DNA from: Bacillota bacterium
GTDB lineage: Bacteria > Bacillota > Sulfobacillia > JACIYH01
Assembly: GCA_040757085.1 (NCBI GenBank)
Contig: JBFLXJ010000030.1
Coordinates: 1-64,000 of the forward strand
Direction of reading: 5' to 3'
Length of the DNA: 64,000 nucleotides
In this document: piece after piece, positions 8,577 through 27,782 of the stretch
How the letters are laid out: the number at the start of each line of letters is the position of its first letter
Numbering within the stretch: position 1 is the first letter of the stretch
The notes under the pieces: model-generated
What the model was told of the DNA's origin: nothing
Seen by the model: only the letters and a program-made list of their open reading frames with translations
Database searches by the model: none
Translations under genes and position numbers: made by a program

Positions 8577-11039
8577 GTACTCCAGCGCTGGCAGGTTACC
8601 GTCCGGGGGACGGTCCAGGGTGTAGGTTTTCGCCCGTTTGTCTGGCGCCTGGCCACGTCTCTGGGGTTGCGGGGCTGGGTGGCCAATGCAGGGGTGGGAG
8701 TGGTCATCGAGGCGGAGGGGCCGCTCGGGGCCCTGGACAGTTTCGTGCGGGCGCTGCGTTCTCATCCGCCCCTCCTGGCCCGGGTGGAAGAAGTGGAAGT
8801 ACAGCCGTTGCCCGGGCTTGCCGATCCCCCCGAGGGGGGATTCTATATCCTGGCCAGCCAGGGAGGAGCACCCGCCCAGGTGATGATACCGCCCGATCTG
8901 GCCACCTGCCCCGATTGCCGGCGGGAGATAGGCGATCCTGCGGACCGTCACTACCGGTATCCCTTCACCAACTGTACTCGCTGCGGTCCCAGGTTCACGG
9001 TGGTGACGGGCCTGCCCTACGATCGCGCCCGCACCACGCTGGCCTCTTTTCCCATGTGCGAACACTGCCGCCACGAATACGAAGATCCCGGGGATCGGCG
9101 TTTCCACGCCCAGCCCACCGCCTGCCCGTTGTGCGGGCCGCGGGCCTGGGTGGTAGATGCTGCAGGGCGCGAACTTCCCGGCCCCTGGGACCGGGTCACC
9201 CGCGAGTTGCTCCGGGCCGGGTACGTCGTGGCCGTCAAGGGCATGGGCGGCTACCACCTGGCCTGCGATGCTACATCCGAAGAGGCGGTGGCCCGGCTGC
9301 GGGAACGCAAGAGGAGGCCAGCTCGGCCCTTTGCCGTCATGTTCCCCGACCTGGAAACGGTGCGTGTTCATTGCCTCCTGTCCCCCCTGGAAGAGGAACT
9401 GCTCACCTCGCCTCAGGCCCCCATCGTCATCCTCCCCCGGCGGTCGGAAGCGGGAGCTCTGGCGTCTTCGGTGGCTCCGGGGCTGGATACCGTGGGGGCC
9501 ATGTTACCCTATACCCCTCTGCACATCCTCCTGCTGGAAGGGTCACCGCCCCTGGTGATGACCAGCGGCAACCGCAGCGGCCTGCCCATCGCAAAGAACG
9601 AAGAAGAGGCGCTGACCCAACTGGGAGACATAGCTGATTACTTCCTCGTCCATAACCGCCCCATTTTCCGGCGCTGCGATGATTCGGTGGTGCGGGTGAT
9701 GCCATCCTGGGGGCCATCGTGCCCCGGGGGATACGTGCAACTCGTCCGCCGCTCGCGCGGGTATGTCCCTGCGGCCATTTCTCTGCCCCTGCCTCCTGGT
9801 GCCCCCTCGGAGTTACCGGTGGTGGCAGCCCTGGGGGCAGAGATGAAGAACGTGGTGTGCCTGACCAGGGGGAACCAGGCTTACCTCAGCCAGCACCTGG
9901 GGGAGATGGACACGGTGGAAGGGGTGGAGAACCTGCGGGAAGCCCTTGGGCAGATGGCTTCCTTGCTGGGGGTGGAGCCCGCAGTGCTGGCCCACGACAT
10001 GCACCCTACCTTCTCTCTGACCGGCCCGGCGCAGCAGTTCCCCCCCGAACGGCGGGTCAGCGTTCAGCATCACCACGCCCACCTGGCCTCTGTCCTGGCC
10101 GATGCCCAGGTGCCCGGCCCCGTGCTGGGCCTGGTGGCCGACGGGGTGGGATACGGGACTGACGGTCAAGTGTGGGGGATGGAGGTGCTGGTGGGATCGC
10201 TGGGAGGGTTCCGGCGGGCGGCTCATCTGGCCTACGTGCCGCTCCCCGGCGGCGAGGGGGCGATCCGCAACCCCCTGCGCATGGCGGTTAGCTACCTGCG
10301 TCACTCGCTGGGCGACGAAGGCCTGGAACTGGCCCGGCAACTTTTCGCGGGCCACGAACGGGAAGTCACCGCCACCTGGCACCTGTGTGCGCGGACGGGC
10401 CTGCTCTGCTCCAGCGCGGGCCGCCTGTTCGATGCAGTATCCGCCCTGCTGGGGATATGTCACCGCAATACCTACGAGGGCCAGGCGGCCATCGAATTGG
10501 AGGAGGAAGCGTGGCGGGCGCTTGCCGGGCGTTCGCCTGACGCGCTGCTGGCGGAGACCGTCCCGTCCCGGCTCTGCCAATCCGGCGGCGAGGGTTCCTT
10601 CCGGGACCGGGAGGGGGACTTGTCCTGGCGGTGGGAGCGCTCGGGGGAAGTATGGGTGGTGGATCCCGGGCCCCTGGTGACCGCCCTGGGACGGGAGATT
10701 CTGGCCGCGGGGAAGGATCAGGGGGCGCGGCGGCGCCTCGCCCTGCGCTTTCACCTGGAGGTAGCCGATATGATGGTCCGCCTGGCGTGCCTGGTGGCGC
10801 GGGAGGAAGGCCTGGACACGGTGGCCCTGTCGGGGGGCACCTTCCAGAACGGCCTGCTGGTCCCTTTGGTGGCGGCAGGGCTCGAGCGGGCGGGTCTGCG
10901 CTGTCTCCTTCCCCGGCAGGTACCTGCCAACGACGGGGGGATTGCCCTGGGGCAGGCGGCGGTGGCGGTCTGGAAGCTGGCGGGGGGTGAGGAGTTTGTG
11001 CCTGGCCGTGCCGGTGCAGGTGCTGGCTCGGGACGGTGA
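8577..11039 (+). CDS. hypF: [NiFe] hydrogenase maturation carbamoyltransferase HypF
   Basis: HypF makes the thiocarbamate on HypE from carbamoyl phosphate, the first step in building the CN ligands of [NiFe] hydrogenases. Domains in order: acylphosphatase (VRGTVQGVGFRPFV), two zinc fingers (CPDC...CTRC and CEHC...CPLC), a YrdC domain (KGMGGYHLACDA) and a Kae1-like domain (QHHHAHLASVLAD). The first usual start codon in this frame is TTG 8667, which would remove the acylphosphatase catalytic loop. The region from about 8577, after GGGAGG at 8569-8574, is clearly coding but holds no ATG, GTG or TTG. The 5' limit given here is therefore homology-based, not a start codon. It overlaps hypC by 44 bases. 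Confidence 0.9.
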   Translation, partial: VLQRWQVTVRGTVQGVGFRPFVWRLATSLGLRGWVANAGVGVVIEAEGPLGALDSFVRALRSHPPLLARVEEVEVQPLPGLADPPEGGFYILASQGGAPAQVMIPPDLATCPDCRREIGDPADRHYRYPFTNCTRCGPRFTVVTGLPYDRARTTLASFPMCEHCRHEYEDPGDRRFHAQPTACPLCGPRAWVVDAAGRELPGPWDRVTRELLRAGYVVAVKGMGGYHLACDATSEEAVARLRERKRRPARPFAVMFPDLETVRVHCLLSPLEEELLTSPQAPIVILPRRSEAGALASSVAPGLDTVGAMLPYTPLHILLLEGSPPLVMTSGNRSGLPIAKNEEEALTQLGDIADYFLVHNRPIFRRCDDSVVRVMPSWGPSCPGGYVQLVRRSRGYVPAAISLPLPPGAPSELPVVAALGAEMKNVVCLTRGNQAYLSQHLGEMDTVEGVENLREALGQMASLLGVEPAVLAHDMHPTFSLTGPAQQFPPERRVSVQHHHAHLASVLADAQVPGPVLGLVADGVGYGTDGQVWGMEVLVGSLGGFRRAAHLAYVPLPGGEGAIRNPLRMAVSYLRHSLGDEGLELARQLFAGHEREVTATWHLCARTGLLCSSAGRLFDAVSALLGICHRNTYEGQAAIELEEEAWRALAGRSPDALLAETVPSRLCQSGGEGSFRDREGDLSWRWERSGEVWVVDPGPLVTALGREILAAGKDQGARRRLALRFHLEVADMMVRLACLVAREEGLDTVALSGGTFQNGLLVPLVAAGLERAGLRCLLPRQVPANDGGIALGQAAVAVWKLAGGEEFVPGRAGAGAGSGR

Positions 11040-11220
11040 CTGGGGAGAGGTGCAGAGTGGCGGGACCCGCCTGCGGGTGGCGCTGCACTTCGTCCCCGGG
11101 GCCCAAGCGGGGGACTGGGTGCTGGTGCACGCGGGGGTGGCCATCGCCGTTCTGGACGAGAAAGAGGCGCGGGAAAGCCTGGCCCTCCTTGGGGAGTTGA
11201 GTGCCGGCGATGGTCGTTGA
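10996..11220 (+). CDS. hypC: Hydrogenase maturation chaperone HypC/HybG
   Basis: About 74 residues starting MCLAVPVQVL. HypC proteins need Cys2, which carries the Fe(CN)2CO unit with HypD and delivers it to the large subunit. The start is TTG 10996, with GGTGAGGAG just upstream; a longer open frame exists but would bury the essential Cys2. The TTG lies inside the end of hypF, and the 3' end overlaps hypD by 20 bases, so the hyp genes are tightly coupled. Confidence 0.92.
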   Translation: MCLAVPVQVLARDGDWGEVQSGGTRLRVALHFVPGAQAGDWVLVHAGVAIAVLDEKEARESLALLGELSAGDGR

Positions 11221-12367
11221 CCGGGCGGTGTGGGATAGGTTTCGGGACCCCCGCGTGGCCCGCGGGCTGGTGGCCAGGATCCGCGAAAGGGTGGCGCGGG
11301 AACTGGGGGGCCACGTGGCTCTTATGGAGGTGTGCGGCACACACACGGTGGCCATCTCCCGCACCGGCATCCGTTCCGCCCTGCGGGATGCGGTCACCCT
11401 GGTGAGTGGCCCGGGTTGTCCCGTGTGCGTTACTTCTGCGGGGGACGTGGATGCCATGGTGACGCTGGCCGCTTCCGGCCTCACCGTGTTTACCTTCGGG
11501 GACATGATGAGGGTTCCGGGAAGTTCTGCCAGCCTGGAGGCGGTGCGGGCCCAGGGTGGCCGGGTGAGGCTGGCCTACTCCCCTCTGGATGGAGTCCTGT
11601 ATGCGGCTTCCCGCCGGGATGAGGAGGTGGTGTTCCTGGCGGTGGGTTTCGAGACCACGGCACCCGGGGTGGCCCTGGCCCTGGTGCAGGCCCGCCGGCT
11701 GGGCCTGGCGAACTTTTCCATCTACCCCGCCCACAAGCTGATTCCCCCGGCCCTGCGGGCCCTCCTCGATCAGGGCGAGGCGAACGTGAGCGGTTTTCTC
11801 CTGCCCGGACACGTATCCACCGTGATCGGCCGACGCGCCCTTTCCTTCCTGGCAGAGGAATACGGCGTGCCGGCGGTGATCGCCGGGTTTGAACCCGTAG
11901 ACATCCTTATGGCGATAGATCGGCTCACCGGGATGATGGCCTCCGGAGAGGTCGGGGTGGTGAACATGTACCCGCGGGCAGTGCGCGAGGAGGGTAATCC
12001 CCTGGCCCAGCAGGCCATGTGGTCCTGCTTTGAGCCGGTAGACGCCACCTGGCGCGGGCTGGGGATGATCGGCGGGAGCGGGCTCGACCTGCGGGCGAGC
12101 TGGTTGGATTTCGATGCCCGCCGGCGGTACGGGGTGGAGGCCCGGGAGCCGGCTGCGGCGCGGTCCGGGTGCCGCTGCGGTGACGTGTTGCGGGGAAGCC
12201 TGCTCCCCCCCTGCTGTCCCCTGTTCGCCCGCGTCTGTACCCCTGCGTCGCCGCAGGGGCCCTGCATGGTGTCCTCCGAGGGCGCCTGCGCTGCCTACTT
12301 CCGCTACGAAAGGGGCGATGACGGTGACCGCCAGGGAGAAGGGGCAGGTGCTCCTGGCCCACGGTGA
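11201..12367 (+). CDS. hypD: Hydrogenase maturation protein HypD
   Basis: 388 residues. HypD is an Fe-S protein that forms the Fe(CN)2CO scaffold with HypC. Conserved cysteine motifs are MEVCGTHT near residue 44, SGPGCPVCVT near 71 and GFETTAPG. The C-terminal cluster ligands are CRCGDVL...CCPLFARVC...GPCMVSSEGAC. The start is GTG 11201 or ATG 11210, both inside hypC. The 3' end overlaps hypE by 50 bases. Confidence 0.93.
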   Translation: MPAMVVDRAVWDRFRDPRVARGLVARIRERVARELGGHVALMEVCGTHTVAISRTGIRSALRDAVTLVSGPGCPVCVTSAGDVDAMVTLAASGLTVFTFGDMMRVPGSSASLEAVRAQGGRVRLAYSPLDGVLYAASRRDEEVVFLAVGFETTAPGVALALVQARRLGLANFSIYPAHKLIPPALRALLDQGEANVSGFLLPGHVSTVIGRRALSFLAEEYGVPAVIAGFEPVDILMAIDRLTGMMASGEVGVVNMYPRAVREEGNPLAQQAMWSCFEPVDATWRGLGMIGGSGLDLRASWLDFDARRRYGVEAREPAAARSGCRCGDVLRGSLLPPCCPLFARVCTPASPQGPCMVSSEGACAAYFRYERGDDGDRQGEGAGAPGPR

Positions 12368-13343
12368 CGGAGGGCTCCTCACCCACCAGCTGATAGCCGA
12401 TCTTTTCCTGCCCCTGCTGGGCAATCCCGTGCTCAGGCGGCTGGAAGATGCGGCCGTGCTGGAGCTGGGTGGGGGCCGGGTGGCATTCACCACGGACTCC
12501 TTCGTGGTCCGGCCGCTTTTCTTCCCCGGGGGAGATATCGGGAGGCTGGCCGTGTGCGGCACCGTGAACGACCTCGCCATGGTGGGCGCCCGCCCCCTGT
12601 ACCTGTCGGCCGGGTTTCTCCTCGAAGAAGGCCTCGACCTGGGCGTCCTGGAACGGGTGGTCGACTCCATGCGCCGGGCGGCGTCCGAAGCTGGGGTGCA
12701 GGTGGTGGCTGCGGACACCAAGGTGGTGGAGAGGGGCAGCGTGGACGGAATCTTCATAAACACGGCCGGGCTGGGGCTGGTGCCGCCGGGAACGGTGATC
12801 GGCCCGGAGGCCGTGCGGCCCGGGGATCGCCTTCTCCTGAACGGGCCGGTGGGAGAGCACGAACTGGCGGTTGTTCTGGCCCGCGAAAACCTGGGAGTGG
12901 AGAGCTCCGTAAGCAGCGATTGCGCAGCGCTGAACCATCTGGTGGCCGACATCATGACCTGCTGTCCGGGGGCGCTGCACTTCTTGCGGGATCCCACCCG
13001 CGGAGGCCTGGCTACCGTGGCCCGGGAGATGGCGGCCGCCTGTGGATTGGATTTTTACCTGGAAGAGGATTGCATACCGCTCACCGACGAAGCACGCGCC
13101 CTGTGTGACCTGCTGGGGCTGGATCCCCTGTATTTGGCGAACGAAGGAAAGTTCCTGGCCGTGGTGGATGCCGCGCAGGCCTCTCGGGTCCTGGAGGCGT
13201 GCCGGGCTCATCCGCTGGGGGCGGGGGCCAGCCTGGTGGGCGAGGTGCGTCCCGGTCGGGGCTATGCCTACCTGATCACCAGCCTGGGGGGTACCCGGCG
13301 CCTGGAGTTGTCGGCAGGGGCGCAGTTCCCCCGCATCTGCTAG
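12318..13343 (+). CDS. hypE: Hydrogenase maturation protein HypE
   Basis: About 341 residues, AIR synthase (PurM)-like fold. HypE dehydrates the thiocarbamate on its C-terminal cysteine to thiocyanate, the cyanide donor. The defining C-terminus PRIC is present, as are FTTDSFVV, GTVNDLAM and LRDPTRGGLATV. The start is ATG 12318 after GAAAGGGGCG; a longer open frame upstream lies inside hypD. This ends the hypFCDE run. hypA, hypB and [NiFe] structural genes are not in the window. Confidence 0.94.
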   Translation: MTVTAREKGQVLLAHGDGGLLTHQLIADLFLPLLGNPVLRRLEDAAVLELGGGRVAFTTDSFVVRPLFFPGGDIGRLAVCGTVNDLAMVGARPLYLSAGFLLEEGLDLGVLERVVDSMRRAASEAGVQVVAADTKVVERGSVDGIFINTAGLGLVPPGTVIGPEAVRPGDRLLLNGPVGEHELAVVLARENLGVESSVSSDCAALNHLVADIMTCCPGALHFLRDPTRGGLATVAREMAAACGLDFYLEEDCIPLTDEARALCDLLGLDPLYLANEGKFLAVVDAAQASRVLEACRAHPLGAGASLVGEVRPGRGYAYLITSLGGTRRLELSAGAQFPRIC

Positions 13344-13490: not shown

Positions 13491-13569
13491 TTGCCGGGAT
13501 ATTGCAATGCTGGTTTTAAGCCGTTTGCAAGGTTTGCGTAATGGGTGCGCCATAAATTGTTGTTACAAT
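13491..13569 (+). promoter_or_regulatory. Promoter region of the [FeFe] hydrogenase operon
   Basis: An unusually AT-rich stretch in a GC-rich window. The best element is TGT-TACAAT at 13561-13569, an extended -10 with no clear -35. The same TGN-TACAAT form precedes hydE (27210), the ykuK-like gene (43561) and veg (44121). A second, weaker candidate is TTGCCG (13491) with 17 bp to TTTTAA (13514). Transcription would start near 13576, immediately before the palindrome. Confidence 0.6.
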
Positions 13570-13580
13570 TTGACCGGACA

Positions 13581-13596
13581 TGTGAAACGTGTCACA
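13581..13596 (+). promoter_or_regulatory. Palindromic operator, Rex-like (or CRP/FNR-like)
   Basis: TGTGAAACGTGTCACA. The outer half-sites TGTGA/TCACA are perfectly symmetric. Read as TGTGAA-N4-TTCACA, the form of the Streptomyces Rex operator, it has one mismatch. Read as TGTGA-N6-TCACA it matches the CRP consensus half-sites. It lies about 12 bp after the -10, which suits a repressor. Rex is the more sensible reading because it senses NADH/NAD+ and the operon encodes NAD(P)H-linked hydrogenases. Confidence 0.55.
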
Positions 13597-13616
13597 ACCC
13601 CCGCCGAGGTTCAGTG

Positions 13617-13976
13617 GTGCGCCTGCGAGATGTCCAGCGAATCCTGCATGCGGAGGTGCTCTGGGGCGAGGACCTGCTCGACAGGGAGGTCGTGGCCGGC
13701 TTCGGCTGCGACCTCATTTCCGATTCCCTCTTCTTCGCCACGCCCGGGACGTTGCTGCTGACGGGCCTCACCCACCCGCAGGTGGTACGGGCAGCCGAAC
13801 TCATGGAGTTCTGCGGTGTGGTCTTCGTCCGGGGGAAGAGGCCTGCCGACTCGGTGGTCGATCTAGCACGGGACAAGGGCATACCCCTGCTTCTCACCAG
13901 GTTCCTGCTGTTCGACAGCTGCGGGCTGCTGTATGAGGCGGGGCTGCGGGGATGCCGTGCCCAAGAGCGCCGGTGA
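13617..13976 (+). CDS. DRTGG-domain-like small protein, first of hydrogenase operon
   Basis: About 119 residues, soluble. It starts MRLRDVQRILHAEVLWGED. The later segment GTLLLTGLTHPQVVRAAELM and the C-terminal half ADSVVDLARDKGIPLLLT resemble the DRTGG-type domains found beside [FeFe] hydrogenases in anaerobic Bacillota. A second relative is encoded at 15764. The function is unknown and regulation or ligand sensing is only inferred. The start is GTG 13617 (or 13614), with CCGAGG upstream. The stop is five bases before the next start. Confidence 0.65.
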   Translation: MRLRDVQRILHAEVLWGEDLLDREVVAGFGCDLISDSLFFATPGTLLLTGLTHPQVVRAAELMEFCGVVFVRGKRPADSVVDLARDKGIPLLLTRFLLFDSCGLLYEAGLRGCRAQERR

Positions 13977-13981
13977 GGACC

Positions 13982-14413
13982 ATGGTTGAGGAACTGGTCC
14001 TGGAGTTCGAGGTGAGGGGCCTGGACTTCGCGGCGGTAGGAGAGGCTTCCGGCAGCATCAAGCGCACCCTGCAGCAGGTGGGGATGGAGGCGTCGCTGGT
14101 GCGGCGGGCCGCCGTGTGTGCTTTCGAGGTAGAAACCAACATTGTGATCCATGCCAGGCGGGGCGTGGTGCGGGCCCGCATCTCCCCGCAGCGGGTGGTC
14201 GTGGAGGCCGAGGACGAGGGGCCAGGTATCCCCGATCTGGAGCTCGCCATGCAGGAAGGTTACTCCACCGCGCCCGCCTACGTCCGCGAGATGGGCTTCG
14301 GGGCGGGCATGGGCTTTTCTAACATGCGGCGGTGCTCGGACCATATGGAGGTGTCCACCGAGGTGGGCAAGGGCACCCGGGTTCGGCTCGTCATCGAGGT
14401 GGGCAAAGCATGA
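13982..14413 (+). CDS. ATP-binding anti-sigma/serine kinase-like protein (RsbW type)
   Basis: About 143 residues with a single GHKL/HATPase domain. The N box reads AFEVETNIVIHA, the G1 box EDEGPGIPD, and the G2 region GFGAGMGFSNM. Such proteins bind or phosphorylate an anti-sigma antagonist. Here it more likely relays a signal to or from the sensory hydrogenase encoded next. The start is ATG 13982 after GTGAGGACC, and it overlaps the next gene by ATGA. Confidence 0.8.
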   Translation: MVEELVLEFEVRGLDFAAVGEASGSIKRTLQQVGMEASLVRRAAVCAFEVETNIVIHARRGVVRARISPQRVVVEAEDEGPGIPDLELAMQEGYSTAPAYVREMGFGAGMGFSNMRRCSDHMEVSTEVGKGTRVRLVIEVGKA

Positions 14414-15786
14414 GCCAGGGCGGGTACTTCCACTCGGTGCGGCTGGACCTGGCCAAGTGCAAGGGGTGCACCAACTGCATCAAGCGCTGCCCGGTGGAGG
14501 CCATCCGGGTGCGCGAGGGCAAGGCCCGGATTATGGAAGAACGCTGCATCGACTGCGGCGAGTGCGTGCGGGTATGCCCCAACCACGCCAAGTACGTGGT
14601 CACGGATGGCCTGGAGCGTTTGCAGGACTTCCGTTGCCGGGTCGCCCTGCCCGCACCGGCCTTTTACGGGCAGTTCCGCCCGGACGTCCCGCCCGGGGCT
14701 GTGCTCGCCGCCCTGCTGGGAGCGGGGTTCGACGGGGTATTCGAGGTGGCGGTGGCGGCTGAGGCGGTTACCCTGGCCACCCGGGCGTACCTGGAGCGGG
14801 GCATGCCGCGGGCGGCCCGTCCTCTCATCTCTTCGGCCTGTCCCGCGGTGATCCGGCTCATGCAGGTGCGGTTCCCCACCCTCCTGCCCCACATCATCCC
14901 GGTGGAGACCCCCATGGAGATAGCAGCCCGCCTGGCCAAAGAGGAAATGGCGCGGGAGCGGGGCGTGAATCCCCGCGAGATCGGTGCATTTTTCATCACC
15001 CCCTGCGCGGCCAAGGTCACGGCTGCCAAGCAGCCCGAGGGGAGCCTGGTGAGCAGCGTGGACGGGGTGCTCTCCATGAGCGCCATGTACGCCGAAGTCC
15101 TCCGGCGACTGCCCGACGTCGACCTGAGCGGGGAACTGCACCGCTCCTCGGGCATGGGTATTGGCTGGGGGGCGGCAGGGGGCGAAGGCCGGGCCCTGGG
15201 AACGGGCACTGTCCTGGCCGTGGACGGCATCCACAATGTGGTGACCGTGCTGGAAGAGGTGGAGCGGGGGACGCTGTCGGACGTCGACTTCATCGAGGCC
15301 CAGGCCTGCGTGGGAGGCTGCATCGGAGGGCCGCTGGCAGTTCAGAACCCGTTCATCAGCCGGGTGCGGATGCGCCGCCTGGTGGAGGAGTACGGCAAGC
15401 GGGGTCCCGGAGTGGACGAGGCCGAGGTGAGGCGGCGGTTCCGGCAGGGTTTCTTTGACATGGTCAAGCCCATCGGGCCCCGCCCCGTCCTGCGCCTGGA
15501 CGAGGACGTCACCCGGGCCATCCGCAAGATGGACCGCCTGGAGAAGACGCTGGCCCGCCTGCCCGGCCTGGACTGCGGCGCCTGCGGGTCCCCTACGTGT
15601 CGCGCCCTGGCCGAGGATATCGTCAGGGAGCGTGCCTTCGAGACCGATTGCATTTTCCAGTTGCGAGAGCATCTCGAGGAGCTGGCAGAGCGCATGGTGC
15701 AACTCACCCGCATCGTGCCTCCAGCTCTCTCCAGGGACAAGGCCCCCGGTGGAGGTGGCGGCGGTGAACCTGAAGACCGTGGTTGA
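14410..15786 (+). CDS. Sensory-type [FeFe] hydrogenase-like Fe-S protein
   Basis: About 458 residues. Two N-terminal [4Fe-4S] motifs (CKGCTNCIKRC and CIDCGECVRVC) precede a hydrogenase large-subunit domain. The three H-cluster loops are SSACPAV, TPCAAKV and QACVGGC. A C-terminal Fe-S domain follows (LDCGACGSPTCRALAEDI). The [2Fe-2S] and His-Cys domains of the catalytic HydA proteins are missing. In the first loop an Ala stands where both HydA proteins have Cys, as reported for low-activity sensory hydrogenases (HydS). Flanked by HATPase, DRTGG and PHP genes, it probably senses H2 or redox state. It overlaps both neighbours. Confidence 0.8.
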   Translation: MSQGGYFHSVRLDLAKCKGCTNCIKRCPVEAIRVREGKARIMEERCIDCGECVRVCPNHAKYVVTDGLERLQDFRCRVALPAPAFYGQFRPDVPPGAVLAALLGAGFDGVFEVAVAAEAVTLATRAYLERGMPRAARPLISSACPAVIRLMQVRFPTLLPHIIPVETPMEIAARLAKEEMARERGVNPREIGAFFITPCAAKVTAAKQPEGSLVSSVDGVLSMSAMYAEVLRRLPDVDLSGELHRSSGMGIGWGAAGGEGRALGTGTVLAVDGIHNVVTVLEEVERGTLSDVDFIEAQACVGGCIGGPLAVQNPFISRVRMRRLVEEYGKRGPGVDEAEVRRRFRQGFFDMVKPIGPRPVLRLDEDVTRAIRKMDRLEKTLARLPGLDCGACGSPTCRALAEDIVRERAFETDCIFQLREHLEELAERMVQLTRIVPPALSRDKAPGGGGGGEPEDRG

Positions 15787-16105
15787 GAAGCTGGGCCTGG
15801 AGGTGCTGACGGGGTCGGCTCACCTGGACCGGGACGTTACCGGGGGGTATGTGAGCGACCTTCTGTCGGACGTGATGGCCAACGCCGTGTCGGGCCAGGT
15901 CTGGATGACCATCCAGACCCACCAGAACGTGGTGGCGGTGGCCAGCCTGGCCAATCTGGCGGGTGTCATCATTACCTCGGGCAAGAAGCCCGATGCCGAG
16001 ACCCTGCAACGGGCCGACACCGAAGGAGTGGTGATCATGCGATCGCCCTATCCCACCTTCCGGGTGGCTGGCGAACTCTGGAGGCTTTTGGGCGGGGCGG
16101 GTTAG
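15764..16105 (+). CDS. DRTGG-domain protein
   Basis: About 113 residues. It reads MNLKTVVEKLGLEVLTGSAH, then LDRDVTGGYVSDLLSDVM, which is the DRTGG motif itself. It ends with VVIMRSPYPTFRVAGELWRLL. DRTGG domains bind ligands in other proteins, but the role here is unknown. The start is GTG 15764 with GGAGG at 15751-15755. It overlaps the sensory hydrogenase gene by 23 bases and ends exactly at the PHP gene start, so the group is co-translated. Confidence 0.8.
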   Translation: MNLKTVVEKLGLEVLTGSAHLDRDVTGGYVSDLLSDVMANAVSGQVWMTIQTHQNVVAVASLANLAGVIITSGKKPDAETLQRADTEGVVIMRSPYPTFRVAGELWRLLGGAG

Positions 16106-16861
16106 ATGGCCCGGCTGCGCCGGTGGCGGGCGGACCTGCACGTGCACACGGCCCTGTCGCCCTGCGCCGACGATGACATGAGTCCCTGGCGGGTGGTGGC
16201 GGCGGCACAGGTGGCGGGGCTTGACCTGATTGCGGTGACCGATCACAACTCCTGCCGGCAGGTACGGGCGGTGATGGAAGTGGGGAGGACGGCCGATCTG
16301 GCGGTGATCCCGGGCATGGAAGTGCAGACGCGGGAAGACGTGCACCTGGTGTGTCTCTTCGACACCCCGGAGCAGGCGGAAAGCTGGGGAGAAGAGGTAT
16401 ACCGTCACCTGCCGGCGCGCTCCAATCCCGAGCAAACCTTCGGAAGGCAACTCCTCTTTGATGCCTGCGACCGGCCGGCCGGTAAGGAGGAACGATTGCT
16501 GCTGTGTGCCTGCGACCTGGGGGTCGAGCAGGTGGTGCAGCGCGTTACCGCCATGGGCGGCCTGGTCGTGCCCGCTCACGTCGACCGCCAGGCCTACGGC
16601 CTGGTGTACACGCTGGGTTTCTTTCCTCCCGGCCTGGACCTGCTGGCAGCCGAGATTTCCGGGCGGGAAGCGGAGGAAGCCGTGAGGACCCGGTTCCCCC
16701 AGCTGGGCGACATCCGCCTGTATTCGGCTTCCGACGCCCACAGGCTGGAGGAAATCGGGCTCCACCCCAGCTTCTTTTGCCTGAAGGAGCCCACGGTGGC
16801 GGAACTGGGACTGGCTTTCCGGGGGGTGGGGGGAAGGAACGTGGTGATCTGCCCCAAGTAG
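16106..16861 (+). CDS. PHP-domain phosphoesterase-like protein
   Basis: 251 residues with a full set of PHP metal-binding motifs: DLHVHT (about residue 10), VTDHN, PGMEVQT, PAHVDR and SASDAH. The family includes phosphatases and nuclease-like enzymes; the substrate is not known. It begins on the base after the DRTGG stop codon. Its place between the sensory hydrogenase module and NuoE is typical of hydrogenase clusters in anaerobic Bacillota and suggests a signalling or maturation role. Confidence 0.85.
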   Translation: MARLRRWRADLHVHTALSPCADDDMSPWRVVAAAQVAGLDLIAVTDHNSCRQVRAVMEVGRTADLAVIPGMEVQTREDVHLVCLFDTPEQAESWGEEVYRHLPARSNPEQTFGRQLLFDACDRPAGKEERLLLCACDLGVEQVVQRVTAMGGLVVPAHVDRQAYGLVYTLGFFPPGLDLLAAEISGREAEEAVRTRFPQLGDIRLYSASDAHRLEEIGLHPSFFCLKEPTVAELGLAFRGVGGRNVVICPK

Positions 16862-16948
16862 GGGCGGTCTTCCTGCTGACAGGAGGGAGGGTGATCGTCT
16901 GCCACAGGTGACGTGGCAACTGCTGCAGCTTCAGAGAGGAGGGAGATC

Positions 16949-17428
16949 GTGGCACAGGTGGCAGCCCTCAGCCCCACGCTGAGGGAGGAAGCGAGTCAAA
17001 TCATCGCCGGGTACCGGGGGCAACCCAGCGGCCTGATCCAGGTGCTATCGCGCCTCCAGGAGAAACTTGGTTACCTGCCCCGTGACGTCCTGAAAGAGGT
17101 GGCGGACACCCTGGACGTAGCACTGACGGATGTGTACGGGGTGGTGACCTTTTACGCGCTGTTCACCTTGAAGCCCCGGGGGCGTCACACCATCAACCTG
17201 TGCAAGGGGACGGCGTGTTACGTGCGGGGGGCGGCTCAACTGATAGAGCGCCTCCGGAAGGACTACGGGCTCAAACCGGGCGACACGACCGACGATGGGC
17301 GCTTCACCCTGGAGGTCGTCCGGTGCCTGGGGGCGTGCGGGCTGGGTCCGGCGGTGATGATCGACAAAGACGTGCACGCTCGCGTCAAGCCTGAGAAACT
17401 GGGGGAAATCCTGAGCAGGTACGAGTAG
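16949..17428 (+). CDS. hndA: NuoE-like [2Fe-2S] subunit (HydC/HndA), copy 1
   Basis: About 159 residues. This is the thioredoxin-like [2Fe-2S] subunit that works with a NuoF-like flavoprotein. The helical N-terminal part has GYLPRDVLKEVADTL and GVVTFYALF. The cluster ligands are CKGTACYVRG (two Cys) and CLGACGLGP (two Cys). GTG 16949 is chosen because GAGAGGAGGGAG precedes it closely; an upstream GTG at 16913 is possible. In context it serves the first catalytic hydrogenase set. Confidence 0.9.
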   Translation: MAQVAALSPTLREEASQIIAGYRGQPSGLIQVLSRLQEKLGYLPRDVLKEVADTLDVALTDVYGVVTFYALFTLKPRGRHTINLCKGTACYVRGAAQLIERLRKDYGLKPGDTTDDGRFTLEVVRCLGACGLGPAVMIDKDVHARVKPEKLGEILSRYE

Positions 17429-17438
17429 GGGGACGACG

Positions 17439-18014
17439 GTGCACGAACTGGCCCTCCACATCCTTGACCTCTTCCGCAACGCCGTGGAAGCGGGGGCCCG
17501 CACGGTGCAGATAACGGTGCGGGAGGACACCGCTTCCGACCGGCTCGAGATCGAGGTACGGGACGATGGGCGGGGGATGACCCCCGACCAGGTGCGCACC
17601 GCCTGTGACCCCTTTTACACCACGCGCCTCACCCGACGGGTGGGGATGGGGCTTGCTCTTCTGGAAGCTGCCGCCCGGGCGGCGGGGGGCGACCTGCGGA
17701 TCGAATCGTCGCCCGGGCAAGGTACGCGGGTGACCGCTACTTTCCAACTTAGCCACATCGACCGGGCCCCTCTAGGGGACATGGCTGCCACCCTGGAGGT
17801 GGCTGCGGCCGAGCCCGCGGTGGAGGTGGAGTACGAACACTGGCGGGACCGCCGCGTTTTCCGTTTCTCCACCCGGGAACTGGACGGGTTTCTGGGGGTG
17901 AGCGCCCGTGATGACCCCCGGGTACTGGCCTGGATTAACCGCCACGTAGCCGAAGGGGAAAGGGCGTTGAGTTCCGCGGTTTGTCAAGGTTGCAAGGGGG
18001 TGGAGTCGAGGTGA
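17439..18014 (+). CDS. Histidine-kinase-like ATPase within the hydrogenase operon
   Basis: 191 residues. The HATPase domain occupies about residues 1-115: N box DLFRNAVEAGA, G1 RDDGRGM, F box DPFYTTR, G2 VGMGLAL. There is no sensor, HisKA or membrane segment. The C-terminal 70 residues (FRFSTRELDGFLG and after) are not recognised. Proteins of this kind lie between NuoE and HndB genes in related clusters; the role is unknown. The stop overlaps the next start as GTGA. Confidence 0.8.
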   Translation: MHELALHILDLFRNAVEAGARTVQITVREDTASDRLEIEVRDDGRGMTPDQVRTACDPFYTTRLTRRVGMGLALLEAAARAAGGDLRIESSPGQGTRVTATFQLSHIDRAPLGDMAATLEVAAAEPAVEVEYEHWRDRRVFRFSTRELDGFLGVSARDDPRVLAWINRHVAEGERALSSAVCQGCKGVESR

Positions 18015-18373
18015 AATCGCTGGAAGATCTGGCCCGGCTGCGGGACGAGGTGCGGGAACGTATGAAGGTGCGGGAGGGCGCCCGAGCTGTGCGCATCACG
18101 GTGGGCATGGGTACCTGCGGCATCGCTGCGGGTGCCCGTGACGTGATGGCTGCCCTCCTGGACGAACTGAGCAAGCGGGGGTTGACCGACGTAACCGTGA
18201 CCCAGACGGGGTGCGCGGGGCTGTGCGAGTACGAGCCCCTGGTGGAGGTGAGCCGGCCCGGCCAGCCCAAGGTGACTTACTCGTACGTAACGCCGGAGAA
18301 GATTCGTCAGATCGTGGCCCAGCACGTGGTGAACGGACAGATCATCGGTGAATGGGTGCTGGCGGCCAGGTAG
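18011..18373 (+). CDS. hndB: [2Fe-2S] thioredoxin-like ferredoxin, HndB type
   Basis: About 120 residues. An N-terminal helix (SLEDLARLRDEVRERM) precedes a thioredoxin-like [2Fe-2S] domain with four cysteines in GTCGIAAGA and QTGCAGLCEYEP. This matches HndB of NADP-reducing hydrogenases, where it passes electrons between flavin and Fe-S subunits. The start is GTG 18011, overlapping the previous stop, with GGTGGAG upstream. It is followed after 18 bp by the NuoF fusion. Confidence 0.87.
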   Translation: MKSLEDLARLRDEVRERMKVREGARAVRITVGMGTCGIAAGARDVMAALLDELSKRGLTDVTVTQTGCAGLCEYEPLVEVSRPGQPKVTYSYVTPEKIRQIVAQHVVNGQIIGEWVLAAR

Positions 18374-18391
18374 CCGGAGGGAGGAGTAGCC

Positions 18392-21300
18392 ATGGAGCTT
18401 TACCGCGCCCACGTGCTCGTGTGTGCTGGGGCCGGCTGCCTTTCCTCCGGGTGCAAGGCGGTGGAGGAAGAATTGCTGGCTGCCATCCGGGAGCACGGGC
18501 TGGACAGAGAAGTGCGGGTGGTGGAGACGGGGTGCATGGGTCCCTGTGACCTGGGTCCCATGATCGTGGTCTACCCCGAGGGGGTGTTTTACCGGAAGCT
18601 GACCCCTGCGGACGCCCGCACCATCGCTGAAGAGCACCTGCTCAAGGGTCGCGTCGTGGAGCGCCTGGTATACCGTCTACCGGAGACGGGAGTCCAGGTT
18701 CCCGAACGGGAGCAGATACCCTTTTTCCAGCGCCAGGTGCGCATTGCCCTGCGCAACTGCGGCCGTATAGACCCGGAGCGGGTGGAGGAGTACATCGCCT
18801 GCGACGGCTACGCCGCCCTGGGCAAGGTGCTTTCCTCCATGAAGCCGGAGGAGGTAATCGACTACCTGAAGCGCTCCGGCCTGCGGGGGCGGGGCGGGGC
18901 GGGCTTCCCCACCGGCCTAAAGTGGGAGTTCGCCATGAAGGCCCAGGGGACGCCGAAGTACGTGGTATGTAATGCCGACGAGGGTGACCCGGGTGCCTTC
19001 ATGGACCGCAGCATACTGGAGGGTGACCCCCACACGGTCCTGGAGGGCATGGCCATCTGCGGCTACACCATCGGGGCCAGGCAGGGGTACTTATACGTGC
19101 GGGCCGAGTACCCCCTGGCGGTGGAACGGCTGGGGAAGGCCATTGCCCAAGCCTACGAGTACGGGCTGCTGGGGGACAACATCTTCGGCACCGGCTTCTC
19201 GTTCCACGTGGAAATCCGGGTGGGGGCAGGAGCATTCGTGTGCGGTGAGGAAACCGCCCTGCTTGCCTCCATCGAGGGCCGACGGGGCGAGCCCCGTCCG
19301 CGGCCGCCATTCCCCGCCAACGAAGGGTTGTGGGGCAAGCCCACGGTCATCAATAACGTGGAGACCTGGGCCAACATTCCCCCCATCATCCTCAATGGTC
19401 CGGAGTGGTTCGCGCGCCTGGGGACGGAACGGTCCAAGGGCACCAAGGTGTTCGCCCTGGCCGGCAAGATCAACAACACCGGCCTGGTGGAGGTACCCAT
19501 GGGGACCACGCTGGGGGAAATCATCTTTGACATCGGTGGTGGTATCCCCAGGGGGAAGAAGTTCAAGGCTGCCCAGACCGGCGGGCCCTCGGGCGGCTGC
19601 ATCCCGGCCGAGTACCTCAATACCCCGGTCGATTACGAGTCCCTGGCTGCGCTGGGGACGATCATGGGGTCGGGCGGCCTCATCGTGACCGACGAGGACA
19701 CCTGCATGGTCGACTTCTCCAAGTTCTTCCTGGAATTTGTCCAGGATGAGTCGTGCGGTAAGTGCACGCCCTGCCGGGTGGGCACCAAGCGCATGCTGGA
19801 GATCCTGGAACGCATCACCCGGGGTGAAGGCCGAGAGGGCGACGTCGAATTGCTCATCGAGCTGGGGCAGCAGATCAAGAATTCCGCCCTGTGCGGCCTG
19901 GGCCAGACGGCGCCCAACCCGGTCCTCTCCACCATCAGGTACTTCCGCGAGGAGTACGACGCCCACATCCGCGACAAGCGGTGCCCGGCCTCGGTGTGTG
20001 CGGCGCTCTTCACGTCGCCCTGCCAGAACACCTGCCCGGCCGGCATCGACATCCCCATATACATCGACCACATCCGCAACGGGCGCTTCCGCGACGCGTA
20101 CTTCACCATCAAGCGCGACAACCCGCTGGCGGCCGTGTGCGGGCGCGTGTGCGACCATCCCTGCGAGTCCAGGTGCCGCCGCAGCCAGATCGACGAGCCC
20201 ATGGCCATCCGGCTGCTCAAGCGGGCCGCCACCGACTGGGTGCTTGAGCACGAGGGGCGCCTTCCCAACTTCGCCCCTGCTCCGTCCAACGGTATGAGGG
20301 TGGCGGTCGTGGGTTCGGGCCCGGCCGGCCTGACCTGCGCTCACTTCCTGGCCCTGAAGGGGTACCGGGTGACGGTGTTCGAGGCCCTGCCCGTGGCCGG
20401 TGGCATGCTGGCCGTGGGCATCCCCGAGTACCGGTTGCCACGCCACGTGCTGGAGGCCGAGATTAAGTCCATCACCGACCTGGGGGTCGAGATCAAGACG
20501 GGCGTCCGGGTCGGGAAGGACATCACCCTGGAGGAGCTGAAGGGGCAGGGTTACCGGGCCATCTTCCTGGCGGTGGGCGCCCACGGCAGCCAGCCCCTGG
20601 GCGTTAAGGGCGAGGAGATGGCCGGTGTCTACGCGGGCGTGGAGTTCCTGCGCCGGGTGAACCTGGGGCAGGCTCCGGACTTCAGGGGCAAGACCGTAGT
20701 AGTGGTGGGCGGCGGCAACGTGGCCATCGATGCGGCCCGTACTGCCTTGCGCCTGGGCGCGAAAGAGGTGCACGTCGTGTACCGCCGGCGCCGGGAAGAC
20801 ATGCCCGCCATCCCCGACGAGATCGCAGAGGCCGAACATGAGGGGATCAGGTTCACCTTTCTGGCCGCCCCGGCTTGGGTGGTGGGGAAGGATGGCAGGG
20901 TAACTGGACTGGCCTGCCAGCGCATGACCCTGGGCGAGTTCGATGCCAGCGGCCGCCGCAAGCCGGTCCCGCAGCCGGGGTCCGAGTTCATCGTGCCCGC
21001 CGACGTGGTGATTTCCGCCGTAGGCCAGACCGTGGAAGCCGAGTTCGCCACCGGCAATGGGGCCCTGGCCCGCGGGCGGGGCGGGGTGTTCGTGGTGGAT
21101 TCCCGGACCATGGCCACCAACCTGGAGGGTGTGTTTGCCGGCGGCGACTGCACCCTGGGTCCGGCCAGCGTGATCGAAGCGGTGGCGGCGGGCAAGCGCG
21201 CGGCCGCCTCCATCGACCGCTACCTGGGCGGCGACGGCAACGTAGTGCTGGAGCAGCCCGTGGAGCGGAAGCTCTCCGGTGAGTTGCTGGAAAAGGAGAC

Positions 21301-21430
21301 GCCGCGGCGCAAGGTGACCGTGCTGCCGCCCGAGAAGAGGTGCGACTCCTTCCGGGAAGTGGAGCTGGGCTACAACTACGAGGTGGCCATGGCCGAGGCG
21401 GCCCGTTGCCTGCGCTGCGACGTGAAGTAG
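18392..21430 (+). CDS. NuoF-like flavoprotein fused to GltD/NfnB-like FAD-NAD(P) oxidoreductase
   Basis: 1012 residues. Domains in order: a [2Fe-2S] ferredoxin-like domain ([21 protein letters not shown], residues 1-95); a NuoF core with the NADH/FMN motif [10 protein letters not shown] near 166 and the [4Fe-4S] motif [11 protein letters not shown] near 453; then a glutamate-synthase small-subunit-like part. That part has Fe-S cysteines (CQNTCPAG near 543, [13 protein letters not shown] near 582), FAD site [10 protein letters not shown] near 637 and NAD(P) site [12 protein letters not shown] near 769. It ends RCLRCDVK. Two nucleotide-binding modules on one chain suggest electron transfer or bifurcation between NADH, NADPH and the HydA encoded next. 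The start ATG 18392 follows GGAGGGAGGAG. Confidence 0.92.
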
Positions 21431-21444
21431 GGGGTAGGGCGGCA

Positions 21445-23178
21445 ATGGCAAAGGTAACCCTGACCATAGACGGGCGCAAGGTGGAAGCCGAACGCGGGAT
21501 GACCGTGCTCCAGGCGGCCCGCCTGGCCGGTATCAATATCCCCACCCTGTGCTACCTGGAGAACCTGAACGCCATCGGGGCCTGCCGGGTGTGCGTGGTG
21601 GAGGTCAAGGGAGCGAAGACCCTGCAGGCTTCCTGCGTCCTCCCCGTGGCGGACGGCATGGAGGTGTGGACCAACTCCCCCGCGGTGCGGGCGTCGCGCC
21701 GCCTTACGGTGGAGTTGCTCCTCTCCGACCACCCCACCGAATGCACGACCTGTATCCGTAACGGAACCTGCGAACTGCAAGCCCTGGCCGAGTCCCTGGG
21801 CATCCGCCGGGTGCGCTTTGAGGGAGAAAAGCACGGGGGGACGGTGGACGAATCCAGCCCCTCCATAGTGCGGGACAACCGCAAGTGCATACTGTGCCGT
21901 CGCTGCGTGGCGGTGTGCGAGAAGGTGCAGTCGGTGAAGGCCATCGGTCCTCAGGAGCGGGGCTTCGAGACGGCCATCGCTCCGCCCTTCGACCTACCCC
22001 TGGCCGACTCGGTGTGCGTGAATTGCGGCCAGTGCACCCTGGTATGCCCGACCGGGGCCCTCCACGAGCGGGATGACACCGAACTGGTCTGGCAGGCCCT
22101 GGCCGATCCCAAAAAGCACGTGGTGGTGCAGACGGCCCCGGCCACGCGCGTCACCGTGGGTGAGATGTTCGGAATGCCCCCGGGGAGCGTGGTGACGGGG
22201 AAGATGGTGGCGGCCCTGCGCCGCCTGGGGTTCGACCGGGTCTTCGACACCGACTTCACTGCCGACCTGACCATCGTGGAAGAAGGGTATGAGCTGGTGC
22301 ACCGCCTGCGGGACGGCGGGGTGCTCCCTATGATCACCTCCTGCAGCCCGGGGTGGATCAAGTTCATCGAGACCTTCTTCCCGGAAATGCTGCCCAACCT
22401 CTCAACCTGCAAGTCGCCCCAGCAGATGTTTGGGGCGCTGGCCAAGACCTATTACGCGCGCAAGGTGGGTATCGATCCTGCTGACATCTTCGTGGTTTCC
22501 ATCATGCCGTGCACGGCCAAGAAGTTCGAGGCCCGGCGCCCGGAGATGACCGACTCCGGATACCCGGACATCGACGCCGTACTCACCTCGCGCGAACTGG
22601 GTCGCATGCTGAAGGAGGCGGGCATCGTCTTCGATGCCCTCCCCGAGGAACCGTACGACGATCCCCTGGGAGTTTCGACCGGGGCCGCTGCCATATTTGG
22701 CGCCACCGGTGGCGTGATGGAGGCGGCCCTGCGCACTGCGTACGAGGTGGTGACGGGTAAGGCCCTGTCCAGTCTCGATTTCGAGGCGGTACGGGGTATG
22801 GAGGGGATCAAAGAGGCCACCGTGGACCTCGACGGCACCCAGGTGCGGGTGGCGGTGGCCCATACCCTGGGCAACGCCCGCAGGGTGCTGGAGGCGGTGA
22901 AGTCGGGTCGGGCTCAGTACCACTTCATCGAAATCATGGCCTGTCCCGGCGGCTGCATCGGCGGTGGCGGCCAACCCATCCCCACTACCGACGAGATACG
23001 CAAAAAGCGCATCGAGGCCATCTACCGGGTGGACAGGGACATGCCGCTGCGCAAGTCCCACGAAAACCCGGTGATCCGGGTGCTGTACCAGGAGTTCCTG
23101 GGCGAGCCCAACTCCCACAAGGCCCACGAGCTCCTGCACACGCACTACCAGCCCCGCTATCAGTACGCCAAGCTGTAA
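21445..23178 (+). CDS. hydA: [FeFe] hydrogenase catalytic subunit HydA, copy 1
   Basis: 577 residues. It reduces protons or oxidises H2 at the H-cluster. Domains: N-terminal [2Fe-2S] (CYLENLNAIGACRVCVV), the His-Cys [4Fe-4S] region (HPTECTTCIRNGTC), two [4Fe-4S] motifs (CILCRRCVAVC, CVNCGQCTLVC), then the H-cluster domain and a short C-terminal small-subunit-like domain. H-cluster loops: TSCSPGW (Cys300), MPCTAKK (Cys356) and MACPGGC (Cys500, Cys504). The first loop has TSCSP rather than the TSCCP of Clostridium CpI. The start is ATG 21445, 15 bp after the fusion gene. The partner is probably that NuoF fusion. Confidence 0.95.
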   Translation: MAKVTLTIDGRKVEAERGMTVLQAARLAGINIPTLCYLENLNAIGACRVCVVEVKGAKTLQASCVLPVADGMEVWTNSPAVRASRRLTVELLLSDHPTECTTCIRNGTCELQALAESLGIRRVRFEGEKHGGTVDESSPSIVRDNRKCILCRRCVAVCEKVQSVKAIGPQERGFETAIAPPFDLPLADSVCVNCGQCTLVCPTGALHERDDTELVWQALADPKKHVVVQTAPATRVTVGEMFGMPPGSVVTGKMVAALRRLGFDRVFDTDFTADLTIVEEGYELVHRLRDGGVLPMITSCSPGWIKFIETFFPEMLPNLSTCKSPQQMFGALAKTYYARKVGIDPADIFVVSIMPCTAKKFEARRPEMTDSGYPDIDAVLTSRELGRMLKEAGIVFDALPEEPYDDPLGVSTGAAAIFGATGGVMEAALRTAYEVVTGKALSSLDFEAVRGMEGIKEATVDLDGTQVRVAVAHTLGNARRVLEAVKSGRAQYHFIEIMACPGGCIGGGGQPIPTTDEIRKKRIEAIYRVDRDMPLRKSHENPVIRVLYQEFLGEPNSHKAHELLHTHYQPRYQYAKL

Positions 23179-23191
23179 AGGAGGGAAGGAG

Positions 23192-23707
23192 ATGGGTAAG
23201 GCGAGCCTAGAGGTTCCTCGCCAGCATACGACCCCCGGGCAGGAGACCGTTCCCCGCCAGGAGATGACCCGGGTGCGGGAGATCATCTCCCGCCTGCGGG
23301 ATCGACCGGCACCCCTTCTGCCCATCCTGCAGGCCATTCAGAAGGAGATGGGCTGGATATCGGAGGAGGCCATGGTGGAGGTGGCAGAAGCCCTGGGTGT
23401 CCACCCCAGCCAGGTCTACGGGGTCACCACCTTCTATACCCTGTTTGCCACCCGGCCCAAGGGCCAGCACGTGATCAGGGTGTGCGCCAGCGCTCCCTGT
23501 CACGTGCCGGGAGCGGGCGCGGTGCTGGAAGCCCTCAAGAAGGCCCTGGGAGTGGACGTGGGGCAGACCACGCCCGACGGGAAGTTCACCCTGGAACTCA
23601 CCAGTTGCATCGGGGTATGCGGGGTGGCGCCCGCCATCATGATCGACGACCAGGTGTACGGGAACCTGAAGCCGGCTGACATCGGGGCCATCCTGGCCCG
23701 CTACTAG
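23192..23707 (+). CDS. hydC: NuoE-like [2Fe-2S] subunit (HydC), copy 2
   Basis: 171 residues. Motifs are GWISEEAMVEVAEALG, GVTTFYTLF, then cluster ligands CASAPCHVPG and CIGVCGVAP. It pairs with the NuoF encoded next to form the NADH-reacting half of the second hydrogenase. The start is ATG 23192 with AAAGGAGGGAAGGAG upstream. The first 24 residues (PRQHTTPGQETVPRQ) are an extension that copy 1 lacks. It is 14 bp from both neighbours. Confidence 0.92.
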   Translation: MGKASLEVPRQHTTPGQETVPRQEMTRVREIISRLRDRPAPLLPILQAIQKEMGWISEEAMVEVAEALGVHPSQVYGVTTFYTLFATRPKGQHVIRVCASAPCHVPGAGAVLEALKKALGVDVGQTTPDGKFTLELTSCIGVCGVAPAIMIDDQVYGNLKPADIGAILARY

Positions 23708-23721
23708 GGAGGGGGAGGGAG

Positions 23722-25440: not shown

Positions 25441-25442
25441 CC

Positions 25443-27224: not shown

Positions 27225-27360
27225 GGCGAACTGACGGGTAGGCTCATCCGGCCCGGAGGTCGCCGCAACACCAGGTGTGACAACAGCCCTGAGGGAAGGG
27301 GAGCGCCTGAACCGAGGGGGCCGGGGCGGCAGCGGCCCGGTCTTGTGAGGACGGTAACAA
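27225..27360 (+). promoter_or_regulatory. Structured 5' leader of the hydE operon, class unknown
   Basis: Between the predicted transcription start and the terminator hairpin at 27361 lies GC-rich RNA with several possible helices. GGCGA (27225-27229) can pair with TCGCC (27260-27264) or with the same motif in the terminator arm (27365-27369). GGGCCG/CGGCCC forms a stem near 27317-27337, and CTTGT/ACAAG another at about 27342-27361. This is the layout of an attenuator or riboswitch. It does not match the consensus of T-box, TPP, SAM-I, cobalamin, FMN, glycine or c-di-GMP-I RNAs as I know them. Confidence 0.5.
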
Positions 27361-27403
27361 GGGCTCGCCTTCGCTCGGGGGAGCGACGGCGAGCCCCTCT
27401 TTT
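27361..27403 (+). terminator. Intrinsic terminator in the hydE leader (attenuator)
   Basis: GGGCTCGCC (27361-27369) pairs with GGCGAGCCC (27388-27396), with an inner CGCTC/GAGCG stem and a GGGG loop, followed by CTCTTTT. It sits before the first gene of the operon and would end transcription early unless the leader refolds. Confidence 0.8.
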
Positions 27404-27458
27404 ATGGGGCGGGTCCAGGCGTACGCCGGGCTGGGGCCGGGCAGGAGGAGGGTCCCAC

Positions 27459-27782
27459 GTGGAGACGGAAGGAGCCATGCGCCGGGTGGGCGTGGTGGGG
27501 ATTATCATCACCGACCGCGGGCGGGTGGCGGCCAGGGTACAGGATATCCTCTCCCAGTTCGGGGACATGATCGTGGGCCGCATGGGCATCCCCTATCGGG
27601 AGCGGGACCTGGCGGTCATCGCCCTCATCGTGGACGGTACCACCGACCAGGTGGGGGCCCTTACTGGCAAGCTGGGACAATTACCCGGGGTGATGGTGCG
27701 CAGCGCCCTGGCCCCGCCGCTGGCGGCGGCTCCCTTGCGCAGGGAAGGTGAACAGAATGGTGGACACGCTGCAGGAAGCTGA
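27459..27782 (+). CDS. TM1266-family iron-only hydrogenase system regulator
   Basis: About 107 residues, a small ACT/NikR-C-like domain: RRVGVVGIIITDRG, then QDILSQFGDMIVGRMGIPY, and ALIVDGTTDQVGALTGKLG. This family is found next to hydE/hydG and is annotated as a putative regulator of the [FeFe] system; no DNA-binding domain is visible. The start is GTG 27459, seven bases after AGGAGGAGG; ATG 27477 is possible but lies only three bases from its GGAG. The 3' end overlaps hydE. Confidence 0.85.
   Translation: METEGAMRRVGVVGIIITDRGRVAARVQDILSQFGDMIVGRMGIPYRERDLAVIALIVDGTTDQVGALTGKLGQLPGVMVRSALAPPLAAAPLRREGEQNGGHAAGS

Follow-up and report, generated by a model that had tools for sequence, protein, structure and literature searches.

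A putative sensory [FeFe] hydrogenase encoded with GHKL ATPases, DRTGG proteins and a PHP phosphoesterase in a conserved cassette with an apparently exchangeable sensor

The cassette and its central hydrogenase

We analyze here a group of genes at the head of the operon for a bifurcating [FeFe] hydrogenase (HydABC) in a 64,000-nucleotide stretch of DNA from a Bacillota bacterium (positions 1 to 64,000 of contig JBFLXJ010000030.1, assembly GCA_040757085.1; hereafter the window), centered on a hydrogenase-like protein that we call HydS. A first-pass annotation, made from the letters alone, had placed five overlapping or abutting genes on one strand here, heading the hydrogenase operon, and both the open reading frames and domain scans bear this out. 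All five lie on the + strand, each overlapping or abutting the next, and encode, in order, DRTGG1, a small DRTGG-domain protein of 119 amino acids (13617..13976; PF07085, E=1.1e-5); HATP1, a SpoIIAB/RsbW-like GHKL ATPase of 143 amino acids (13982..14413; PF02518, E=5.8e-12); HydS, a group D (M2e) [FeFe] hydrogenase of 458 amino acids (14410..15786; PF02906, E=7.6e-37; PF04060, E=1.9e-12); DRTGG2, a second small DRTGG-domain protein of 113 amino acids (15764..16105; PF07085, E=7.1e-8); and PHP, a PHP-family metallo-phosphoesterase of 251 amino acids (16106..16861; PF02811, E=1.1e-7). The start of HydS overlaps the end of HATP1 by 4 nt (ATGA, at 14410), which is the coupling that had been described for this pair. 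DRTGG2 most likely starts at the GTG at 15764, a placement inferred from homologues that overlaps HydS, and the start of PHP directly abuts the stop of DRTGG2. The initial list of members and domains was thus correct for the five genes, but it omitted a C-terminal [4Fe-4S] domain of HydS as well as a sixth member, the second GHKL ATPase HATP2 (17439..18014, + strand; PF02518, E=1.9e-20).

In every sequence feature checked, HydS fits the published description of group D (M2e) [FeFe] hydrogenases. The domain scan gives an architecture of two [4Fe-4S] motifs, the H-domain and a C-terminal [4Fe-4S] domain (PF04060), lacks the N-terminal [2Fe-2S] and His-Cys domains, as had been claimed, and in Pfam shows no PAS domain. 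HydS loci were collected from genomes of the same phylum (80) and from GTDB (80 named loci), and all four H-cluster cysteines, whose retention had been noted in the window, are conserved in 160/160 homologues. Alignment with solved [FeFe] hydrogenases likewise upholds the reading of the motif SSACPAV, the Ala of which occupies the position of the proton-transfer Cys found in the TSCSPGW motif of catalytic enzymes. At this position (C299 in CpI), the 160 homologues have Ala (115), Ser (37), Thr (5) or another residue (3), and never Cys, while the position of CpI M353 is Thr in 85 and Ser in 73 (158/160; Thr197 in the window). The C-terminal Cx2Cx4Cx16C motif (C389, C392, C397 and C414) is again kept in 160/160. 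A member of this group, TamHydS, has been characterized, with measurable activity, a flanking HATPase and an adjacent AraC regulator, in a study that also posed the signal relay of group D sensory hydrogenases as a question (Land 2020, PMC8163306), and M2e enzymes had been classed as sensory because kinases lie nearby (Carere 2012, PMC3561251); neither the sensory label nor the HATPase neighbor is therefore new.

Conservation, natural fusions and exchange of the sensor

Locus counts out of 126 cover the loci, that of the window among them, whose flanks reach 2.7 kb or more on each side. The full five-gene set is present at 103/126, which excludes a chance association, and HATP1 is present at 121/126. 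HydB is found downstream of HydS on the same strand at 87 of these loci, is divergent at 9, and is out of reach at 30. In a sample of 398 genomes of the same phylum, a group D-like HydS occurs in 159, showing that the cassette is widespread, and of these 159 genomes 157 also hold HATP1 and 148 hold PHP (raw counts are used, Fisher p-values ignoring shared ancestry). The most widely kept core of the cassette is DRTGG1-HATP1; we considered DRTGG2 and PHP as obligatory members and rejected this, as some loci are without them.

Natural fusions into single open reading frames link neighboring members of the cassette. DRTGG1 is fused to HATP1 at nine loci, HATP1 to HydS at three (among them Fermentithermobacillaceae), the C terminus of HydS to DRTGG2 at three (L036, L037 and L153, among them Symbiobacterium), and PHP to HATP2 at four (L095, L101, L108 and L167). 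It is these fusions that bring HATP2 into the system, making six proteins, and HATP2 also directly follows PHP at loci without HydABC. The fusions further make direct contacts of HydS likely, with HATP1 on one side and with DRTGG2 on the other, and together with the replacement of HydS described below they name its probable direct partners. At L036 and L037, a hydrogenase domain and an HATPase also share one long open reading frame near the module (L036:12430-14739 and L037:12677-15022), which is probably a group C hydrogenase-histidine kinase.

In a second line of evidence, HydS is replaced by a CBS domain pair. At the thresholds applied, the PHP subfamily occurs in seven genomes in which no group D HydS is detected. 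At three of their loci (L206, L207 and L208), DRTGG1 is followed by a HATP1 that carries a CBS pair at its N terminus, and then by DRTGG2, PHP and HATP2, and the CBS pair on HATP1 in HydS-less cassettes is detected by Pfam at E values of 1e-28 to 1e-32. In a fourth HydS-less genome (L239), where the CBS domains were identified through sequence similarity to L207, the CBS form heads NuoE, 2Fe-2S, HydB and HydA genes and so occupies the place of HydS, with a Rex-like gene just upstream of the cassette. Two loci whose contig ends interrupt the cassette (L209 and L210) and one with a divergent HydS (L211) were left out of this count. Both forms can also coexist: genomes with a CBS-HATP1 cassette at L213 and L214 hold a DRTGG1-HATP1-HydS locus as well (L057 and L075), and CBS-HATP1 and HydS are both carried at L043, L107 and L111. 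Coupling of the sensor to the kinase-like cassette is well supported by these genomic data, as is a sensory role for HydS coupled to HATP1, given the group D signature, the HATP1-HydS fusions, the co-occurrence of HydS with HATP1 and the CBS replacement. In this respect the original interpretation, a sensory hydrogenase coupled to an HATPase, stands. Its description of DRTGG and PHP as a simple output is unproven: no part of the cassette is kept more widely than DRTGG1-HATPase, and some loci have no PHP.

The residues of the partners are also informative. In HATP1, the nucleotide-binding residues (N-box E/N, DxGxG and GxGxG) are conserved across 78 homologues, and SpoIIAB is its sequence match in the PDB (1til, E=1.1e-7). 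A model of the natural DRTGG1-HATP1 fusion at L118 (pLDDT 93, pTM 0.82) matches the same structure in Foldseek (TMt 0.84), with its DRTGG half matching 2ioj and 3l31, the latter a CBS-DRTGG region, and in a model of a HATP1-HydS fusion (pLDDT 91, pTM 0.74) the hydrogenase part matches known [FeFe] hydrogenases. Assignment of HATP1 as an ordinary anti-sigma F factor was rejected, as it scores 54.1 bits against the TIGR01925 cut-off of 135. DRTGG1 and DRTGG2 are paralogues that share an invariant Ser and an invariant Thr, which are candidate phosphorylation sites only. The metal-ligand motifs of PHP (HxH, DHN, GxE, H, H and SDAH) are conserved in 67 homologues, the residues H12, H14, D46, H47, E72, H80, H158, D210 and H212 being invariant in 17 homologues and 96-99% conserved in the 67; because all metal ligands are kept, PHP is probably enzymatically active.

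Flanking genes, promoter and neighboring enzymes

After PHP, the operon continues with NuoE/HydC, HATP2, a 2Fe-2S protein, HydB and HydA, all of the following being on the + strand: the HydC/NuoE-like gene opens the set of subunit genes for the bifurcating hydrogenase (16913..17428; PF01257, E=2.4e-51), HydB (18392..21430) belongs to what is probably the controlled enzyme, with HydB homologues near HydS in relatives, and HydA (21340..23178, with the start codon probably at 21445) is the catalytic subunit, carrying TSCSPGW and matching HydA1 of 7q4v/8a6t at E about 1e-220. The region 16913-27176 in fact holds tandem bifurcating hydrogenase sets, NuoE-HATP2-2Fe2S-HydB-HydA followed by NuoE-HydB-HydA, with TSCSPGW in the HydA of both. 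Downstream of HydS, the hydrogenase genes are followed (27345-30302) by the gene for a small ACT-like protein, likened by eye to the TM1266 family, and then by those for two radical SAM proteins resembling HydE and HydG. Directly upstream of the cassette (8667-13343) we recognized, again by eye, HypF-, HypC-, HypD- and HypE-like [NiFe] hydrogenase maturation genes. An ordinary third DRTGG protein of 357 amino acids with a P-loop N terminus is encoded just past the end of the window (G000:C30:64839-65153, L198).

A predicted Rex-type operator-like palindrome, ATGTGAAACGTGTCACAA (13580..13597, + strand), lies about 20 bp before the start of DRTGG1 and has two mismatches to TTGTGAAnnnnTTCACAA; sites with at most three mismatches are expected by chance 0.36 times in the whole window. 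Upstream of the module, Rex-type scores of at least 12/14 are found at a minority of loci (11/79, vs 4/395 mononucleotide shuffles). The source genome encodes two Rex-type (PF06971) proteins, and in Caldicellulosiruptor bescii a Rex site lies 39 bp before the Hyd genes (PMC6391272). A second near-promoter palindrome, AAATTGT-tgtt-ACAATTT (13552-13569), lies just upstream of the Rex-like site.

At related loci, the cassette accompanies other enzymes of ferredoxin and NAD(H) metabolism. The cassette or its DRTGG1-HATP1 core heads Rnf operons at L107, L111, L237 and L238, and stands beside RseC, Rex, multihaem cytochrome-like, Nfn-like and RnfC-like genes at L241 and L242 (Rnf and Nfn gene names at relative loci were assigned by sequence reading). 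At L087, L096 and L099, RseC-like, Rex-like and NapC/NrfH-like cytochrome genes follow HATP2 in the same direction; Pfam confirms both Rex and RseC in L099, Rex in L087 and L214, and RseC in L096. In Atribacterota, the cassette is found in housekeeping loci, away from HydABC. In other lineages, HATP1-HydS adjoins a dCache-GAF-PAS histidine kinase, an OmpR-type regulator, CheW, GGDEF proteins or hydrogenase-MCP fusions, all of which are signaling contexts. Beside HATP1-HydS at L078 and L092, single open reading frames join an [FeFe] hydrogenase to a methyl-accepting chemotaxis (MCP) signaling domain (L078:5977-7890 and L092:5851-7791), possibly forming H2 chemoreceptors. We had considered these neighbors of 638 and 647 amino acids as HATPase-like, and rejected this in favor of hydrogenase-MCP fusions.

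Proposed mechanism, alternatives and known systems

We propose, at somewhat better than even confidence, that the six proteins form a GHKL-kinase cassette with an exchangeable sensor that tunes a neighboring ferredoxin/NAD(H) enzyme. This proposal builds on what is read directly from the sequences: the gene set, the fusions, the ATP-binding, metal-binding and H-cluster residues, the sensor swap and the neighboring enzymes. HydS would be the input: H2 or a redox equivalent would alter its H-cluster, and the altered state would be passed through direct HydS-HATP1 contact to HATP1, a putative protein serine/threonine kinase whose activity would be gated by HydS; in related copies, a CBS pair responding to adenine nucleotides may gate HATP1 instead of, or besides, HydS. 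DRTGG1 and DRTGG2 would act as the switch, in place of the STAS proteins of SpoIIAA/RsbV partner switching; PHP would remove the phosphate, and HATP2 would provide a further point of control. The output would be an adjustment of the neighboring enzyme, which is HydABC in the window and Rnf or Nfn at other loci, with Rex acting in parallel to set transcription from NADH/NAD+. We infer H2 as the ligand, the kinase and phosphatase activities, DRTGG as the substrate and direct action on HydABC. Control at the level of enzyme activity is favored over transcription, because the cassette itself encodes no DNA-binding protein and transcription can be left to Rex. A stronger version, in which GHKL kinase, DRTGG switches, PHP phosphatase and plug-in sensors directly set HydABC, Rnf or Nfn activity in step with H2, redox and energy state and so constitute a new class of bacterial signal transduction, we put forward tentatively, as a possibility that we would not at present expect to hold in full.

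Several observations weigh against this proposal. PHP is missing at 20/126 loci and a few loci are without both DRTGG2 and PHP, such that no single output is universal, and a PDB sequence search with DRTGG2 and PHP gave no usable match. HATP1 might be a mere ATP-dependent binding protein, and the invariant Ser and Thr of the DRTGG proteins could be structural or ligand-binding instead. In addition, the C-terminal cluster of TamHydS is unresponsive to H2 (Schumann 2026, PMC13104023), which makes the path from the H-cluster to the partner less certain.

The alternative that survives best, albeit one that we consider unlikely, is a second-messenger system. PHP would then cleave a regulatory nucleotide, the ligands of the DRTGG proteins (and of CBS, where it occurs) would be adenylates or dinucleoside polyphosphates, and HydS and HATP1 would gate nucleotide turnover rather than a protein phosphorylation switch. 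The nearest NCBIfam models of PHP, all below cut-off, do include nucleotide, RNA and cyclic phosphate phosphoesterases (3',5'-nucleoside bisphosphate phosphatase, RNase RNM and phosphoribosyl cyclic phosphate diesterase), the best structural matches of DRTGG include the CBS-DRTGG regulatory region of the Clostridium perfringens pyrophosphatase, and HydS is replaced by CBS pairs. However, the cassette has no conserved enzyme that makes nucleotides, the two GHKL ATPases suggest protein kinases, and some loci keep DRTGG-HATP1-HydS without PHP.

We judge transcriptional partner switching to be quite improbable. Here, HATP1 would be an anti-sigma factor or regulator kinase through which the signal from H2 reaches a sigma factor or a regulator that binds DNA (for instance Rex), encoded beside the cassette or elsewhere. 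Such a route would fit the SpoIIAB/RsbW fold of HATP1, the same-direction Rex or Rex-like genes at L087, L096, L099, L214, L239, L241 and L242, the OmpR-type regulators adjoining HATP1-HydS at L078, L079, L091 and L092, and the AraC regulator beside TamHydS (Land 2020, PMC8163306), but it sits poorly with the low score of HATP1 against the anti-sigma F model, with the placement of the STAS and SpoIIE homologues of the source genome on other contigs, and with the domain search, which saw no sigma factor or STAS gene in the neighborhoods examined. Finally, it is very improbable that HydS is a slow electron-transfer enzyme, with the small ATPases and DRTGG proteins as subunits that assemble or stabilize HydABC, since, although genes of the cassette alternate with those of the hydrogenase at NuoE and HATP2 and TamHydS activity is measurable, the cassette occurs away from HydABC (for example in the Atribacterota housekeeping loci and in Rnf and Nfn operons) and without any HydS where CBS substitutes, and the proton-transfer Cys is missing in 160/160 HydS homologues.

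Returning to the exchangeable-sensor cassette, its association with HydABC, Rnf, Nfn and Rex points to a device shared among anaerobes for balancing H2, ferredoxin, NAD(H) and energy charge, of relevance to fermentation, acetogenesis and biohydrogen. The first-pass annotation had considered the route from sensor to output undescribed, in agreement with our search of open-licence papers, in which we found no description of a module joining DRTGG to a hydrogenase or sensory hydrogenase.

Among known systems, the group D enzyme TamHydS (PMC8163306; PMC13104023) is closest, sharing the two N-terminal [4Fe-4S] motifs, the lack of Cys299, the Ser/Thr at M353, the C-terminal Cx2Cx4Cx16C motif, the lack of PAS, the position upstream of a bifurcating HydABC and the HATPase neighbor. 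The published account differs in that it notes one HATPase and the AraC regulator only; neither there nor in the other open-licence papers searched did we see DRTGG1, DRTGG2, PHP or HATP2 described, nor the fusions or the replacement by CBS. The group C (M2f) HydS proteins (Thermotoga maritima, HfsABCD, Ruminococcus HydS) are similarly putatively sensory, lie near metabolic hydrogenase genes and have an altered proton-transfer residue, but they carry a PAS domain and are accompanied by serine phosphatase-like or kinase proteins, whereas group D is without PAS and is accompanied by the DRTGG-HATPase cassette.

With SpoIIAB/RsbW partner switching, the cassette shares the SpoIIAB fold and ATP-binding residues of HATP1, and possibly a kinase/switch/phosphatase logic. 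Despite this similar working, it is not a member of that family, because STAS and PP2C are absent from it, as is a sigma factor; DRTGG and PHP stand in their places, and the inputs are hydrogenase or CBS domains. The pyrophosphatase region 3l31 likewise combines CBS and DRTGG, with a matching DRTGG fold, in an adenylate-regulated protein, but does so within one enzyme, whereas in the cassette DRTGG stands alone or as a fusion with either the GHKL ATPase or HydS, and it is the ATPase that carries CBS. The regulatory [NiFe] hydrogenase HoxBC-HoxJ couples an H2-sensing hydrogenase to an ATP-dependent GHKL kinase, which is the pairing that we propose for the cassette, although it does so with an unrelated hydrogenase, a PAS-linked histidine kinase and a response-regulator output. 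The probable sensory role of HydS and its HATPase neighbor were already on record; what is new here is the surrounding machinery: the conserved five-gene set, the fusions that extend it to six proteins and the swap to a CBS sensor.

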